DNA of 64,000 nucleotides, taken from assembly GCF_001458415.1 (NCBI RefSeq), contig NZ_CYSD01000037.1, forward strand, positions 250,501 to 314,500. Reading direction: 5' to 3'. The position numbers were made by a program, and so were the translations under genes. The notes below the pieces were generated by a model that made no database searches, was not told the DNA's origin, and saw nothing but the letters and a program-made list of their open reading frames with translations. The stretch is from Tritonibacter multivorans (GTDB lineage: Bacteria > Pseudomonadota > Alphaproteobacteria > Rhodobacterales > Rhodobacteraceae). How positions within the stretch are numbered: position 1 is the stretch's first letter; each line of letters starts with the position of its first letter. Shown one piece after another: positions 31,981 to 52,328 of this stretch.

Positions 31981-31996
31981 TGTTTCACGGGAAACA
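31981..31996. other. parS-like site, one mismatch
   Basis: TGTTTCACGGGAAACA differs from the parS palindrome TGTTTCACGTGAAACA by one base. It lies in the short gap between the msrA/ribokinase terminator and the ribokinase stop, about 20 kb from oriC. It may bind ParB weakly or be a decayed site. Confidence 0.5.
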
Positions 31997-43552: not shown

Positions 43553-43906
43553 ATGCGATACCTCTTTGCCAGCTTTGGACTGATTTCAATCGGGCTGGCC
43601 TTGATAGGTGTCATCCTTCCCCTCGTGCCAACTGTGCCATTCCTGCTGCTGGCTGCCTTCTTTTTTGCGCGCTCTTCCACGCGGCTGCACCATTGGCTGA
43701 TGTCGCACCAGACCTTTGGACCGATGATCGAAGACTGGCAGGACCACGGCGCCATTCGCCCAAGCGCAAAAAAGGCGGCCACCCTGTCGGTCGCCGCCGT
43801 TTTCGCGATCTCTCTTGCCCTGCAATTGCCTGTCCACGTCTTGGGAATTCAGGCCGTCACGCTGGGCTGTGTCATGATCTTCATCTGGACCCGCCCTAAC
43901 GGCTGA
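43553..43906 (+). CDS. DUF454 (YbaN-like) inner-membrane protein
   Basis: 117 aa. Two or three hydrophobic segments: residues about 5-40 (GLISIGLALIGVILPLVPTV), and 85-115. The signature PLVPTVPFLLLAAFFFARSS followed by HHWLMSHQTFGPMIEDW is that of DUF454/YbaN. Function unknown. It starts 4 nt after hemW and so may be the last gene of the rph run. It ends convergently with parB, the two coding ends overlapping by 11 nt. Confidence 0.88.
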   Translation: MRYLFASFGLISIGLALIGVILPLVPTVPFLLLAAFFFARSSTRLHHWLMSHQTFGPMIEDWQDHGAIRPSAKKAATLSVAAVFAISLALQLPVHVLGIQAVTLGCVMIFIWTRPNG

Positions 43907-44804
43907 GCAGATTGCACAGTTCGTCCAGCTGGTCGAGGTTGTCATAGCTGATCGTAATCGAACCAGCCTCTCCCCCAGGCTTGTGATCGATCGACACCTT
44001 CATCCGCAGCATGGCAGACAGATCGCCTTCCAACGCGCGCGTATCAGCATCTTTGTCGCCAGCTGGTTTTGCCTTTTTCGGGGCCGCATTGGTGTTCACG
44101 CCGGCCGCGTCTTTCTTCACCAATGCTTCCGTTGCACGAACAGAAAGACCACCTTTGACGATCTTCTTTGCCAGATCAGACGCGTTGTCGGACGTGATCA
44201 GCGCGCGTGCATGACCGGCAGAGAGCTTGCGCTCCATCACCAGATCCTGCACGTCATCCGGCAGGTGCAGCAAACGCACGAGATTGGCGATGTGACTGCG
44301 GCTTTTGCCAAGCGCCTCGGCCATCTTTTCCTGCGTGTGGCCGAATTTGTCCATGAGCTGCTTATAGCTCTGCGCTTCTTCCAAAGCATTCAGGTCAGAA
44401 CGCTGAATGTTTTCGATGATGGCAACTTCCATCATCTCCAGATCGGAGTAGTCGCGGATCAGGACCGGAACTTCGTGCAAACGCGCAGCTTGCGCGGCAC
44501 GCCAACGGCGTTCACCGGCAACGATCTCGTAGACGCCCTCTTTGTTGGGGCGGACGATCAGCGGCTGAAGAACGCCCTTTTCTTTGATGGAAGCCGTCAG
44601 GTCATCCAGATCTTCTTGCAGAAACTGGCGACGGGGCTGATCCGGGTTGGCCCGGACTTTTTCTATTGGTACTAGCACTTCTGCATTTCGCGGAGCGGTT
44701 CCTGCGGCAGGTTCAGATGTGCTGACGGGATCCGCCGTCACATCCGCCATCAGGGCCGAAAGGCCACGCCCCAATCCTCTTGGCTTGTTTTTCTTGTCTG
44801 CCAT
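43896..44804 (-). CDS. parB: chromosome partitioning protein ParB
   Basis: 302 aa from the ATG at 44804 (MADKKNKPRGLGRGLSALM). ParB binds parS, loads as a CTP-dependent clamp and spreads to build the partition complex. Seen: the ParA-stimulating N-terminus (GLGRGLSALM), the CTPase-region GERRWRAAQAARL, the helix-turn-helix (QEKMAEALGKSRSHIANLVRLL, cited for position near residue 150) and the C-terminal dimerisation end. 19 nt downstream of parA. Its sites are visible at 46199 and 48095. Confidence 0.97.
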   Translation of the reverse strand: MADKKNKPRGLGRGLSALMADVTADPVSTSEPAAGTAPRNAEVLVPIEKVRANPDQPRRQFLQEDLDDLTASIKEKGVLQPLIVRPNKEGVYEIVAGERRWRAAQAARLHEVPVLIRDYSDLEMMEVAIIENIQRSDLNALEEAQSYKQLMDKFGHTQEKMAEALGKSRSHIANLVRLLHLPDDVQDLVMERKLSAGHARALITSDNASDLAKKIVKGGLSVRATEALVKKDAAGVNTNAAPKKAKPAGDKDADTRALEGDLSAMLRMKVSIDHKPGGEAGSITISYDNLDQLDELCNLLSR

Positions 44805-44823
44805 TTCTTGACCTTTGACTTTC

Positions 44824-45633
44824 TTAAGCTGCGACCTTTTCGTGGTTCGCAATTACCTCGGCGGCGAGCTGGCGGTATGCCTTAGCACCAAGTGACATCG
44901 GATCATAGCTCAGAACCGGCATTGCATAAGACGGCGCTTCGCTGACACGTACATTACGTGGAATTTTGGTCCGGAACACCAATTCACCTAGGTTATCACG
45001 TGCATCCTGTTCGACTTGAAGCGACAGGTTATTGCGGCGATCATACATGGTCAGAACCACGCCTTCGATCCGCAAATGTGGATTGGCCGCCTGGCGTACT
45101 TCGCGCACCGACAGCATCAGCTGCGACAGGCCTTCGAGCGCAAAGAACTCGCTCTGAAGCGGGATCAGAACGGAATCGGCCGCAACCATTGCATTCACAG
45201 TCAGAAGGTTCAGCGAAGGCGGACAATCAATCAGGATGTAATCCCAGTCGTATTCTTCCATCCCCCGCTGGCGCAAAGCGGTATGCAGTAGGAAGCTGCG
45301 GCGTTCATTGGCAATCAGCTCAATATCCGCGGAACTCAGATCCACTGTGGCCGGCACAATGCACAGATCTTCAGTATCCGTTGTGTGAATGACCTGTTGC
45401 AACGTCGACTGCTGGGTCAGTAGCTCATATGTCGTATGTTCACGCTGGTCGAGATCAATACCTAGGCCGGTGGAGGCGTTGCCTTGCGGATCCAGATCGA
45501 CAATCAAAACCCGCATACCTTCTTCGACCAAAGCGGCTGCAAGATTAATGGTTGTTGTTGTCTTTCCTACCCCACCTTTTTGGTTAGCGATCGCAATAAT
45601 ACGAGGTCCTTCCGGACGGGACATGTCAGACAC
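44824..45633 (-). CDS. parA: chromosome partitioning ATPase ParA
   Basis: 269 aa from a GTG at 45633, chosen because GGGAG lies 6 nt upstream; a TTG at 45639 and an ATG at 45624 are alternatives. Deviant Walker A QKGGVGKTTTTINLAAAL, Walker A' VLIVDLDPQGNAS, Walker B ILIDCPPSLNLLTVNA. It moves ParB-bound origins on the nucleoid. Its start overlaps the rsmG stop by 8 nt, so it is the continuation of the mnmE-mnmG-rsmG run. Confidence 0.96.
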   Translation of the reverse strand: MSDMSRPEGPRIIAIANQKGGVGKTTTTINLAAALVEEGMRVLIVDLDPQGNASTGLGIDLDQREHTTYELLTQQSTLQQVIHTTDTEDLCIVPATVDLSSADIELIANERRSFLLHTALRQRGMEEYDWDYILIDCPPSLNLLTVNAMVAADSVLIPLQSEFFALEGLSQLMLSVREVRQAANPHLRIEGVVLTMYDRRNNLSLQVEQDARDNLGELVFRTKIPRNVRVSEAPSYAMPVLSYDPMSLGAKAYRQLAAEVIANHEKVAA

Positions 45634-46231
45634 GCTCAACTCCCTTCATCTTGAGAATAACAGCCTGGGGCTCAGTAAGACTTGTAATCGCTTCCCACTC
45701 AAACCGCCATTGCTGCAATGCGTTATCCACTTCTTTTTTCCAATTTCCGCCCTTCGGGAAGATGCAGACGCCATCCTTTTTAAGATGCCGCTCGGAAAAT
45801 TCGCACAGTTGCGAAAGATCCGCCAACGCCCTGGCAGACAGGATGTCTGCGGACTGCGCAGCGGCGGCTTCAATGCGTTCTGAAATCACATTGATTTTGA
45901 CACCGCATTCACGTGCTGCGGTCCGCAAAAAGGCCGATTTTCGTTGGTCGCTTTCGATAAGCGTCACACTTAGGTCCGGTGCCTTATCCGCCGCGCAGAT
46001 CGCAACAATCACGCCAGGCAAACCACCGCCGCTGCCTATATCAACCCAGTGACCTTTGGGGTCGGTAATGGCCTCGAAAACTTGAATCGAATCCAAGATA
46101 TGTCGCGTCCAAAGATCCGGAATGGTGGATTTGGAAACCAGATTGATCCGCGGGTTCCACTTCTGCAATGTTGCGTCGAAGGTTTTCAGGCGCTCCATTG
46201 TTTCACGTGAAACATTCAACGCCGCGGTCAT
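45626..46231 (-). CDS. rsmG: 16S rRNA (guanine-527-N7)-methyltransferase RsmG
   Basis: 201 aa. Methylates G527 of 16S rRNA (formerly GidB). Seen: [20 protein letters not shown] near residue 35, SAM motif [16 protein letters not shown], and [14 protein letters not shown]. Residues 6-11 (NVSRET) are encoded by a perfect parS site, so this N-terminus serves both protein and partition DNA. It overlaps mnmG by 4 nt and parA by 8 nt. Confidence 0.96.
46199..46214. other. parS partition site within rsmG
   Basis: Perfect 16-bp palindrome TGTTTCACGTGAAACA, the ParB-binding consensus. It lies in codons about 6-11 of rsmG, 1.4 kb from the parAB genes and about 5.2 kb from oriC. Confidence 0.95.
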
Positions 46232-48111
46232 GCGGTTTTTCCCTTTTGCAAAGAACCCCGCTTGACGCGGCCAAGGATGAGCGCAAGCGCTGCCGGCGTC
46301 ATGCCCTCAATCCGCGCAGCTTGTGCAAGGTTGGCAGGCTTAATGCGATTCAGCTTTTGCTGAAGCTCGTTGGACAAACCGTCTATGGCGTAATCAAAAT
46401 CACTCGGAATGACATGCGCTTCGTCTTTGCGCATTGCCTCCACTTCTTTCCGCTGACGCTCAATGTAATTTGCATAAAGCGCATCCCGTTCCAGCTGTGA
46501 CGTAATCTCCTGCGACAGGTCACTAAGTTCCGGGAACAAAGGCGCAATGGATGCAAAGTCGACATCAGGGAAGGCCAGAACCTCAATGCCATCACGACGG
46601 TTGCCATCTTGGTTCACCGCAATGCCGGTTTCCAAAATCTGCTTTGGCGTGAAGTGACGCGACTTCATAAGCGACACCGCCTTATTGAGGTGACCGATCT
46701 TATCCTCGAAATGCTCTCGCCGTTCATCCCCGACACAACCCAACTCCATCGCAAGCGGCGTCAAACGCTGATCCGCATTGTCCGCCCGCAGCGACAAGCG
46801 GAACTCCGCACGTGACGTGAACATTCGATAAGGTTCCGAGACACCATGGGTGGTGAGGTCGTCGATCATCACCCCAATATAGGAGGTCGCCCTGCTGAAC
46901 AGCAGCGGATCCCTTCCCTGACAGGACAAGGCAGCATTAAACCCGGCGACCATGCCTTGGGCAGCTGCCTCCTCATATCCTGTTGTGCCATTGATCTGAC
47001 CAGCGAGGTACAGGCCCTTCACATCACGAAGTTCCAGCGTCTGCGACAAAGCGCGGGGATCGACATAGTCGTATTCAATCGCATAGCCGGGCTGAAGAAT
47101 GACGGCCTCTTCCAGACCAAAGATAGACCGGACGTAAGCGACCTGCACATCTTCCGGCAAACTGGTGGAAATACCGTTTGGATAGACGGTGTCATCCGTC
47201 ACCCCTTCCGGCTCGAGGAAGATCTGATGAGACAGCTTATCGGCGAAACGCACAATCTTGTCTTCAATAGAGGGACAGTAACGGGGACCGACACCTTCGA
47301 TGTGCCCACCGTACATCGCAGACCGATCCAAATTCGCACGGATGATATCGTGCGTTTTCTCATTTGTATGGGTGATCCCACAGGCAATTTGCTGGGCAAA
47401 CGTGCCTTTGGTCAAAAACGAGAAGAACGTCGGATCTTCGTCTCCGGGTTGTTCATCCAGATCTGCCCAACGAATGGTTTTGCCATCAAGACGAGGTGGT
47501 GTTCCTGTTTTCAGACGGCCAAGCGGCAAATCAAAGCTCGCCAGACGTTCCGCCAGTTTGATCGACGGACGATCTCCGATCCGCCCTCCTGGCCGGGACA
47601 CATCACCGATGTGAATAATGCCGTTCAGGAAGGTCCCAGATGTCAGAATGACCGCGCCGGCATTGATTTCTCGCCCATCCGCCAATACCACGCCGGCGAC
47701 ATGTTTTTCCTCGGAAAACGAAAAATCTGTGACCTCTCCTTCGACAATGTCGAGGTTCGGTTGCGCTTTGGTCGCTTTCAACATCTCAGTGCGATAGATT
47801 GCACGATCTGCTTGTGCCCGGGGCCCTTGGACCGCCGGCCCCTTGCGTCGGTTCAGCAGACGAAACTGAATGCCAGCGAGGTCCGCAACGCGCCCCATAA
47901 CCCCGTCCATGGCGTCAATCTCGCGCACGAGGTGCCCCTTGCCGAGCCCCCCGATAGCAGGATTACATGACATCACACCGATGCCGTCTTCATGAAGGGT
48001 TACCAAGGCGGTCGACGCCCCCATACGGGCCGCAGCGTGCGCCGCTTCCGAGCCGGCATGCCCGCCGCCGACAACCACTACGTCATAGGCCGAATGTTTC
48101 ACGTGAAACAA
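46228..48111 (-). CDS. mnmG: tRNA modification enzyme MnmG (GidA)
   Basis: 627 aa. With MnmE makes the 5-(carboxymethyl)aminomethyl group on wobble uridine 34. Seen: the FAD-binding [20 protein letters not shown] at the N-terminus, [24 protein letters not shown] and the C-terminal [11 protein letters not shown]-like helical domain that contacts MnmE. The start is a TTG at 48111 (with GAGGA close by) or a GTG at 48102; a perfect parS site covers exactly these codons. 3 nt downstream of mnmE, 4-nt overlap with rsmG. Confidence 0.96.
48095..48110. other. parS partition site at the mnmG start
   Basis: Perfect palindrome TGTTTCACGTGAAACA. Read on the minus strand it makes the first codons of mnmG (encoding FHVKH after the TTG start). 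About 3.3 kb from oriC and 1.9 kb from the other perfect site. Confidence 0.95.
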
Positions 48112-50854: not shown

Positions 50855-51310
50855 TCAGAATTTGAAAATGACCGAAACCACAATGATCACCATCAGCAAA
50901 GTCGGCACTTCGTTCATCAGCCGATACTGACGACCGGTCAGTCGGTTTGCGCCTTTTTCAAAGCCTTTGTGGCGCGCCATCAGCCAATGATGGAACCAGG
51001 TCATGCCAATGACGCTAGCGCCCTTCATCCAGGGCCACAGAGCGCCCCAATCAACAATCCCTGGGGTCAGCACCAGAAACAGCCCAGCAAGCCACGTAAC
51101 GACGCTTGCTGGGCCCATGATCAGTTTAAGAAGCTTCCGCTCCATGACGAGGAAGATCGGGCTGACACCTTCCACATTCTCAGCCTGCTCCACGTGATAC
51201 ACAAACAGGCGTGGCAAATAGAAGAGCCCTGCCATCCAACTGATCACGGCCATGATGTGCAGTGATTTCGCGTATGGGTAGAGCGTGTGCATGAGATCAA
51301 CCAGATCCAT
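50855..51310 (-). CDS. hemJ: HemJ-type protoporphyrinogen oxidase (UPF0093)
   Basis: 151 aa. A membrane protein of four hydrophobic helices; oxidises protoporphyrinogen IX in bacteria without HemG or HemY. The conserved His-containing LHIMAVISWMAGLFYLPRLFVYH stretch (cited in part near residue 18) and KLLKLIMGP, WFHHWLMARHKGF are typical. Start ATG at 51310 with AAGGA 8 nt upstream. First gene left of oriC, transcribed away from it. Confidence 0.93.
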   Translation of the reverse strand: MDLVDLMHTLYPYAKSLHIMAVISWMAGLFYLPRLFVYHVEQAENVEGVSPIFLVMERKLLKLIMGPASVVTWLAGLFLVLTPGIVDWGALWPWMKGASVIGMTWFHHWLMARHKGFEKGANRLTGRQYRLMNEVPTLLMVIIVVSVIFKF

Positions 51311-51350
51311 TCCAGATATCCTTGGTCCGGAGTTCGAGGGTCATAACCCC

Positions 51351-51390
51351 ATATATAATAAAAAGTTTTATAAGGATGATGATTATGTAG
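51351..51390. other. AT-rich unwinding tract of oriC
   Basis: A 40-bp stretch made of ATATATAATAAAAAG followed by TTTTATAAGGATGATGATT; strongly AT-rich compared with the ~60% GC around it. Candidate DNA unwinding element. Confidence 0.55.
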
Positions 51391-51404
51391 TGCACCCCAA
51401 AAAC

Positions 51405-51413
51405 GGTGGATTA
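51405..51413 (-). other. weak DnaA-box-like site
   Basis: TAATCCACC on the minus strand, 7 of 9 matches to TTATCCACA, next to the AT-rich tract. Confidence 0.4.
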
Positions 51414-51440
51414 ATGAGTCGCCGGCTGAGTCGTGCACAG

Positions 51441-51449
51441 GGTGGATAA
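51441..51449 (-). other. DnaA box
   Basis: TTATCCACC on the minus strand, 8 of 9 matches to TTATCCACA. Confidence 0.65.
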
Positions 51450-51538
51450 AAATAGCGCTCTTTCTGGTGATTCTGTAGAGAAACGGTAATGCGCCATAAA
51501 AATAAGGCATCCAAGCCGTGTTGTAACCAGTTTGGGAT

Positions 51539-51547
51539 TGTGGATAT
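51539..51547 (-). other. DnaA box
   Basis: ATATCCACA on the minus strand, 8 of 9 matches. Confidence 0.6.
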
Positions 51548-51574
51548 GTCTGGGAGAAACTTGAGTAACTGAGT

Positions 51575-51583
51575 TTATCCCCG
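51575..51583 (+). other. weak DnaA-box-like site
   Basis: TTATCCCCG, 7 of 9 matches; 18 bp from the next box in the same orientation. Confidence 0.45.
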
Positions 51584-51592
51584 CCGGCAGAG

Positions 51593-51601
51593 TTATCCAT
51601 A
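51593..51601 (+). other. DnaA box
   Basis: TTATCCATA, 8 of 9 matches to TTATCCACA. Confidence 0.65.
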
Positions 51602-51728
51602 TCCCCTCTGATGGAATCGGTGAATGGATGGGACGACTCAGGGGGGTTACTCCCACCCTTGCCTTCGAGGTGGAAAACCATACAAACCGTCCAAAGACCA
51701 TCGTCAGCTTACTCATAGGGTTTCCCAC

Positions 51729-52328
51729 ATGCCTACCCACATCGTACTTGCCTCAGGATCCGAGATCCGCGCCCAACTTCTGCGTCAGGCGGGGATTGAA
51801 TTCGTGGTAGATGTGGCGCGCGTGGACGAGGATGCGATCAAATCTGCGCTCTTGGCAGAGGAGGCCTCACCGCGGGACATTGCTGATGCGCTGGCCGAAT
51901 CCAAAGCGCGCCGGGTGAGCCACAAACACCCCGGTCACCTCGTTATGGGATGCGATCAGGTGCTGGATTTCAACGGCGAATTGCTGTCGAAACCCAAAAC
52001 ACCGGAAGAGGCGCAGGAACAATTAAAGCGCATGCGCGGCAAGCGGCACATGTTGTTGTCGGCGGCGGTGATTTACCGCGATGGGGAACCGATCTGGCGT
52101 CATGTTGGACAAGTACGCCTGTCCATGCGCATGTTCTCAGACGCCTATATTGAAACTTACGTGGAGCGGAACTGGGACAGTATCCGCCACGCGGTTGGGG
52201 CCTATAAACTGGAAGAAGAGGGCGTGCGCCTGTTCACCACGGTTGACGGCAGCTACTTTAATGTTCTGGGATTGCCCCTGCTGGAACTGATAAATTACCT
52301 GGGGCTGCAAGGGATCATCGAGCAATGA
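51729..52328 (+). CDS. Maf-like nucleotide pyrophosphatase
   Basis: 199 aa from the ATG at 51729 ([20 protein letters not shown]); the open frame reaches back into oriC without support. Maf proteins hydrolyse NTPs, often modified ones, to monophosphates. Seen: [31 protein letters not shown] with catalytic Asp, and [16 protein letters not shown]. The first residue window differs slightly from E. coli YhdE (SxxR motif kept as SEIR), so the YceF-like subfamily is possible. First gene right of oriC, with overlapping aroE. Confidence 0.92.

Follow-up and report, generated by a model that had tools for sequence, protein, structure and literature searches.

The intergenic region between hemJ and maf of Tritonibacter multivorans, together with the maf start codon (positions 51311–51731), is almost certainly the replication origin (oriC) of the main chromosome, and it is predicted to be a DnaA-dependent origin of the Rhodobacteraceae (roseobacter) type. 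Positions refer to the window, the whole 64,000-nucleotide stretch of DNA that was analysed (C37:250501–314500). The placement of a chromosomal oriC between these two genes, as made in the original prediction, is supported by the GC-skew minimum, a cluster of DnaA boxes, the least stable DNA of the contig, the proximity of parABS and the conservation of the site and its elements. Computation established the location of the origin as well as the box cluster, the duplex instability, the conservation and the skew, each of which is described below.

The gap itself comprises 418 bp (51311–51728), bounded by the start of hemJ at 51310 on the minus strand and by the ATG of maf at 51729 on the plus strand, so that the interval originally given was exact. 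It is 53% AT against 42% in the 64-kb window, and the two genes are divergent; the AT-richness and the outward transcription on both sides had each been recognized correctly. The left flank, hemJ (50855–51310, minus strand), matched TIGR00701 with 126.7 bits, below the cut-off of 138.05. The right flank, maf (51729–52328, plus strand), matched TIGR00172 above the cut-off; the scan used a longer ORF starting at 51624, in which the match begins at residue 36. Two minus-strand ORFs overlap the gap in the window (51244–51681 and 51411–51740). A gene in the gap was rejected because a frame is fully open across it in just 2 of 79 relatives, and a structured RNA because the single Rfam match scored 18.7 bits, far below the gathering score of 40. 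A conserved stretch, GGAAAACCATACAAACC (51664–51694), lies approximately 35–60 bp upstream of maf and is perhaps the maf promoter or another element of the origin.

For the comparison, 80 close relatives were picked by HemJ similarity, the named ones being mainly Tritonibacter, Leisingera and Ruegeria. The order hemJ–gap–maf was found in 79 of these; the remaining locus (L065) ends before maf and was dropped. Gap length in the 79 relatives was 353–434 bp. A wider draw of 61 genomes from the family gave a HemJ match in 53 (the genome under study among them) and none in 8. The analysis covered 48 of the others with a match, leaving out 4 whose matches were all weak (E 6e-7 or worse). The same order was present in 45 of the 48 family-wide loci, the other 3 having no maf in reach. 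In 39 family loci the gaps measured 351–474 bp and held 7.41 boxes per kb. Six of the 45 (L224, L232, L244, L247, L250 and L252) have 1.2–2.3 kb between hemJ and maf, with open frames of around 300–420 codons; these perhaps represent an older gene order and were omitted from the box statistics. A Leisingera-like hemJ–maf locus with 77% HemJ identity (L009) was also met on a contig whose record bears the name Nocardioides marinus, and it looks as though either the title of the record is wrong or the assembly is mixed.

The GC-skew profile, proposed originally as a check, was calculated for the whole of contig C37 (510 kb, with 2,500 bases unread), which is one of 45 contigs. Cumulative skew falls along the contig, rises locally at approximately 45–75 kb, reaches its minimum at window position 51247, only 64 bp left of the gap, and rises thereafter. 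On the one contig profiled of the 45, the predicted oriC therefore lies at the skew minimum, and the check was passed. A single dnaA match was found in the genome (PF00308, 231.1 bits, in a 472-codon frame with no internal stops), showing that DnaA is encoded; the gene is located at C37:417790–419190, approximately 115.6 kb right of the gap. An origin at dnaA was rejected on the skew, which is positive on either side of that gene. In one relative (G213), hemJ lies near 1.21 Mb on a 3.12-Mb contig (C6), and skew was negative in 8 of the 10 stretches sampled ahead of it. The stretch from 1.22 Mb, past hemJ, was still slightly negative (−0.014); skew was positive in all 8 stretches from 1.26 to 2.72 Mb and negative in the final one, at 2.96 Mb. 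The skew of a closed relative (G154) was noisy: when the terminus is assumed to lie opposite hemJ (at ∼2.2 Mb), one side shows the expected sign in 9 of its 10 sampled stretches, the other in only 5 of 10. In this genome the stretch nearest hemJ on the 5-of-10 side has the wrong sign, which counts against the assignment.

Nine-mers resembling the DnaA box TTATCCACA were then counted in the gap. No perfect box was found, in line with the original prediction, whereas three matched at 8/9 and four at 7/9. Five such 9-mers had been claimed; the three with 8/9 matches (51441 and 51539 on the minus strand, 51593 on the plus strand) were recovered, but the total proved to be seven. In 2000 Markov shuffles of the gap, the chance expectation was 0.15 for boxes at 8/9 or better (p = 0.002) and 1.65 at 7/9 or better (p = 0.0015), so the cluster is above chance. 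The densest 420-bp box windows of the 510-kb contig also fall on the gap. Three boxes at 8/9 or better are found there against 2 in the next best window elsewhere, and at 7/9 or better the 420-bp window from 51401, which extends into maf, holds 9 against 5. In the 79 relatives, the density of boxes at 8/9 or better is 6.78 per kb in the gaps compared with 0.222 per kb in the flanks.

Conservation of the individual boxes was uneven. Box A (TAATCCACC, 51405–51413, minus strand, 7/9) adjoins the unwinding module described below, and 75 of 79 relatives have it at 7/9 or better. For box C (ATATCCACA, 51539–51547, minus strand, 8/9), 66 of 79 reach this level and 63 have 8/9 or better. Corresponding counts are 37 of 79 for box B (TTATCCACC, 51441–51449, minus strand, 8/9), 33 of 79 for box D (TTATCCCCG, 51575–51583, plus strand, 7/9), and 24 of 79 for box E (TTATCCATA, 51593–51601, plus strand, 8/9). 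Two further weak box-like sites, both 7/9 and on the minus strand, are unconserved: TTCTCTACA at 51474–51482 (13 of 79) and TTTTCCACC at 51669–51677 (4 of 79). Box F (TTTCCCACA, 51721–51729, plus strand, 7/9) overlaps the maf ATG and extends one base beyond 51728. Among the 79 near relatives, 77 have it at 7/9 or better and 76 at 8/9 or better, and because it is kept there and overlaps the maf start, the origin interval should reach at least 51731. An exact TTTTCCAC closes the gap before the maf ATG in 57 of 79 near relatives, compared with 5 of 39 family-wide (12 of 39 for a relaxed form), and box F is therefore a feature of the nearer relatives. In a control with 31 random positions, the mean conservation was 3.3 of 79, with one value of 74; a plus-strand box at 51431–51439 is conserved among 74 of the 79 relatives and lost here (6/9). 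Its loss in the window was counted against an oriC, as were the lack of a perfect box, the weakness of several boxes and the poor conservation of two of the seven.

By nearest-neighbour energies, the least stable duplex, and hence the predicted DNA unwinding element, spans 51340–51390. No window of 50 steps among the 509,950 on the contig was less stable than that from 51340, and the same was true for 30 steps from 51350 (∼510,000 windows); at 80 steps, however, 43 contig windows were less stable than the gap, which counts against it. An A/T-rich, readily melted element is thus present at the 30- and 50-step scales, and the unwinding end of the predicted origin can be assigned to the hemJ side. 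Comparison with relatives revealed a conserved unwinding module here, consisting of an A/T-rich tract, GATGATG-NTNTGTAG and DnaA box A. Its element AAGGATGATGATTATGTAG (51372–51390, plus strand) lies partly inside the least stable DNA and partly next to it. The alignment of 80 gaps gave the consensus AAGGATGATG-N-TTTTGTAG, in which conservation reaches 90% or more at 15 of 19 columns. The candidate melting site can be narrowed to a few dozen bases and is well conserved. Leftwards from box A on the plus strand, six DnaA-trio-like NAN trinucleotides could be followed, with A at 51385, 51382, 51379, 51376, 51373, and 51370; the two A's closest to the box are rarely shared (51385 in 7 of 80, 51382 in 16 of 80), which counts against this reading.

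In many loci across the family, the left end of the gap shows a tract rich in purines or A, followed by GATGATG repeats, then GTAG and then a GTGGA box. The module was found in 99 of 119 gaps, the window included. Spacing from GTAG to the first box was 14–15 bp in 71 of the 99 and 5 bp in 15, with another value in 10 and no box in 3; a cruder regular expression applied to 80 sequences gave 63 and 8 for the two main spacings. Both spacings, with a second box in tandem, occurred in 10 of the 99 gaps with the module, and the difference between the two roughly equals the length of a box or a turn of the helix. The pattern of the 19-bp element has its sole zero-mismatch copy in the 4.17-Mb genome at this site. 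A class-wide element was rejected, as matches with at most two mismatches were seen in 36 of 190 genomes compared with 17 for a reversed control pattern; of two other family members in that draw, one matched (G022) and one did not (G154). Within the family, 67 of 295 genomes matched, at any genome position, compared with 9 for the control. On these two sets of counts, the exact 19-mer is typical of no more than a part of the family. A regular expression for the module found no copy beside hemJ in the best 28 other-family matches; this expression is overstrict, as it also overlooks the copy in the window, 30 of the 48 loci from the family and 16 of the 80 near ones.

Partitioning genes and sites had been placed 3–5 kb to the left. 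This held for the two perfect parS sites (TGTTTCACGTGAAACA), at 46199–46214 and 48095–48110 (5.1 and 3.2 kb from the gap), which are the only two on the 510-kb contig, but not for parAB, which lies further off at 43896–45639 (5.7–7.4 kb left). The product of parB (43896–44852, minus strand) has a ParB domain above the cut-off (TIGR00180). That of parA (44824–45639, minus strand) matched ParA-type ATPases, with the 25 listed of 31 matches each below the family cut-off. A parS-like site with one mismatch was also noted at 31981–31996, ∼19 kb left of the origin, and one more on the contig outside the window.

From this arrangement we infer DnaA binding, filament polarity and unwinding as follows. 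DnaA-ATP would occupy the weak boxes across 51405–51729 and nucleate on box A (51405–51413), from which a filament would extend leftwards on the plus strand. Running through the NAN tract of the GATGATG repeats (51369–51386), the filament would melt the least stable DNA of the contig (51340–51390) and allow helicase entry. Forks departing both ways would account for the switch in skew, and ParB on the two nearby parS sites would, with ParA, segregate the new origins. Precise parts that can be tested emerge from the comparison, namely box A, the 19-bp element of the unwinding module and the box (F) that overlaps the start codon of maf.

The gap contains five GANTC (CcrM) sites, whose first bases are at 51416, 51428, 51469, 51614, and 51635 (overall 51416–51639), an excess of methylation sites where ∼0.5 would be expected per 418 bp. 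At least five are found in 0.2% of the 420-bp windows of the contig, at the gap and four other places. The densest cluster of the contig, 10 sites in a 420-bp window, lies before dnaA; these ten occupy ∼280 bp that begin in the last part of rpsT and run into the rpsT–dnaA intergenic region (C37:417148–417429, outside the window). Any effect of methylation on the five sites of the gap is inferred. One reading is that full or hemimethylation by CcrM times the loading of DnaA, in parallel with methylation of the promoter of dnaA, much as E. coli relies on Dam and SeqA; we regard this as doubtful, if conceivable, and a link between methylation and initiation at the gap as possible. Alongside the two clusters, enrichment in relatives is consistent with it: GANTC occurs at 14.12 per kb in gaps and 2.08 in flanks in a near group of 17 loci that was defined post hoc from the counts, and at 4.94 compared with 2.30 per kb in the other 62 loci. 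Before dnaA, 3–7 sites were found in all 30 relatives searched (30 of the 80 close loci were used). The genome also has a gene for GcrA and one with a RAMA domain, which we take to be that of CcrM; among 14 control genomes, the domain was seen in Caulobacter only. Against such timing, three further places on the contig have five GANTC in 420 bp, and many relatives have as few as 0–3 at oriC. Counts at oriC and dnaA are uncorrelated (Spearman 0.06, 30 genomes), on which ground a coupling of the two through GANTC was rejected. Caulobacter lacking CcrM, moreover, is described as keeping normal replication control (PMC3973325). Enrichment of GANTC in the ori and ter regions was already reported for Dinoroseobacter (PMC6473078), and the clusters at oriC and dnaA are of interest in an order where a minor gene-regulatory role of replication-driven methylation has been suggested (PMC8116508).

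A more elaborate proposal, which we put forward as a speculation that is unlikely to hold in full, combines a Rhodobacteraceae-specific unwinding module with such a methylation lock. DnaA would read 3′-TAG-5′ trios, in place of the usual 3′-GAT-5′, starting at a box that stands at either or both of two fixed distances (5 and 14–15 bp, about one helical turn apart), and hemimethylation of the dense GANTC sites in oriC and before dnaA in the neighbourhood of Tritonibacter and Leisingera would block re-initiation, convergent with Dam/SeqA.

Caulobacter and other alphaproteobacteria have a related gene neighbourhood at oriC, and parABS lies near Caulobacter Cori, as it does here. With the same class and this related neighbourhood in mind, an origin of the Caulobacter type, in which CtrA sites overlapping the DnaA boxes act as a gate, was considered, and it appears very improbable. 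Low-affinity DnaA boxes, as in Cori (PMC4468827), would fit it, but Cori has five CtrA sites (PMC4468827) whereas no full CtrA site (TTAA-N7-TTAA) was found in the gap; three are present on the 510-kb contig, the nearest ∼22 kb off. Nor was a strict IHF consensus, degenerate sites aside, found in 51000–52000. Weak boxes and several GANTC sites are features that Cori shares (PMC4468827, PMC3973325), and the likeness of the predicted origin to that of Caulobacter is one of neighbourhood. That the gap is merely the divergent hemJ/maf promoter region under transcriptional control by DnaA, with the true origin elsewhere, for example at dnaA, is hardly credible, since the skew switches at the gap and not at dnaA, three boxes at 8/9 or better occur in no other 420-bp window of the contig, and the gap holds the contig's lowest duplex stability over 30 and 50 steps. 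In favour of this reading, both promoters probably lie there, the conserved 51664–51694 stretch could be that of maf, some conservation would be expected of divergent promoters too, and between rpsT and dnaA two boxes at 8/9 or better fall within 420 bp.

The predicted hemJ–maf origin was finally compared with known systems. E. coli oriC has an unwinding element at one end, beside box R1, and GATC methylation sites. The origin described here likewise has its unwinding element at one end, with the adjoining box oriented as R1; it differs in having no perfect box and in carrying GANTC rather than GATC sites. The basal unwinding system (BUS) offers a further parallel. DnaA-trios take the form of successive trinucleotides with a central A, and the published rule asks for a box with at most two mismatches, a spacer of at most 16 bp and at least three NAN trinucleotides (PMC8287927). 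Here six NAN steps are present but the spacer is 18 bp, for which reason strict membership fails. The rule held in 96 of 119 gaps, the window included, compared with 26.4% of Markov shuffles, and with at least five steps in 16 of 119 compared with 2.8%. As in the BUS described for the B. subtilis origin and in the systems predicted to be related to it, a box is followed by a NAN run into unstable DNA, and the tandem second box of 10 of the 99 gaps is a further likeness, with the difference that the repeated trinucleotide is 3′-TAG-5′ and not the usual 3′-GAT-5′ (PMC8287927). We propose that the predicted origin would work like a BUS, short of strict membership.

Within the family, Kopejtka et al. 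(2019) predicted oriC in 101 Rhodobacteraceae strains using Ori-Finder with curation (PMC6699656). In a non-exhaustive literature search, no marker-frequency or footprint proof was found for origins of this family, which in the sources seen were assigned by skew, software and ParB foci. The present site resembles those predictions in its skew minimum, DnaA boxes and closeness to parAB, and departs from them in that its internal anatomy was derived from the comparison of relatives (PMC6699656). Rhodobacteraceae origins having been predicted before, this one is of a known kind, and its internal anatomy is useful and testable rather than a new class of system.
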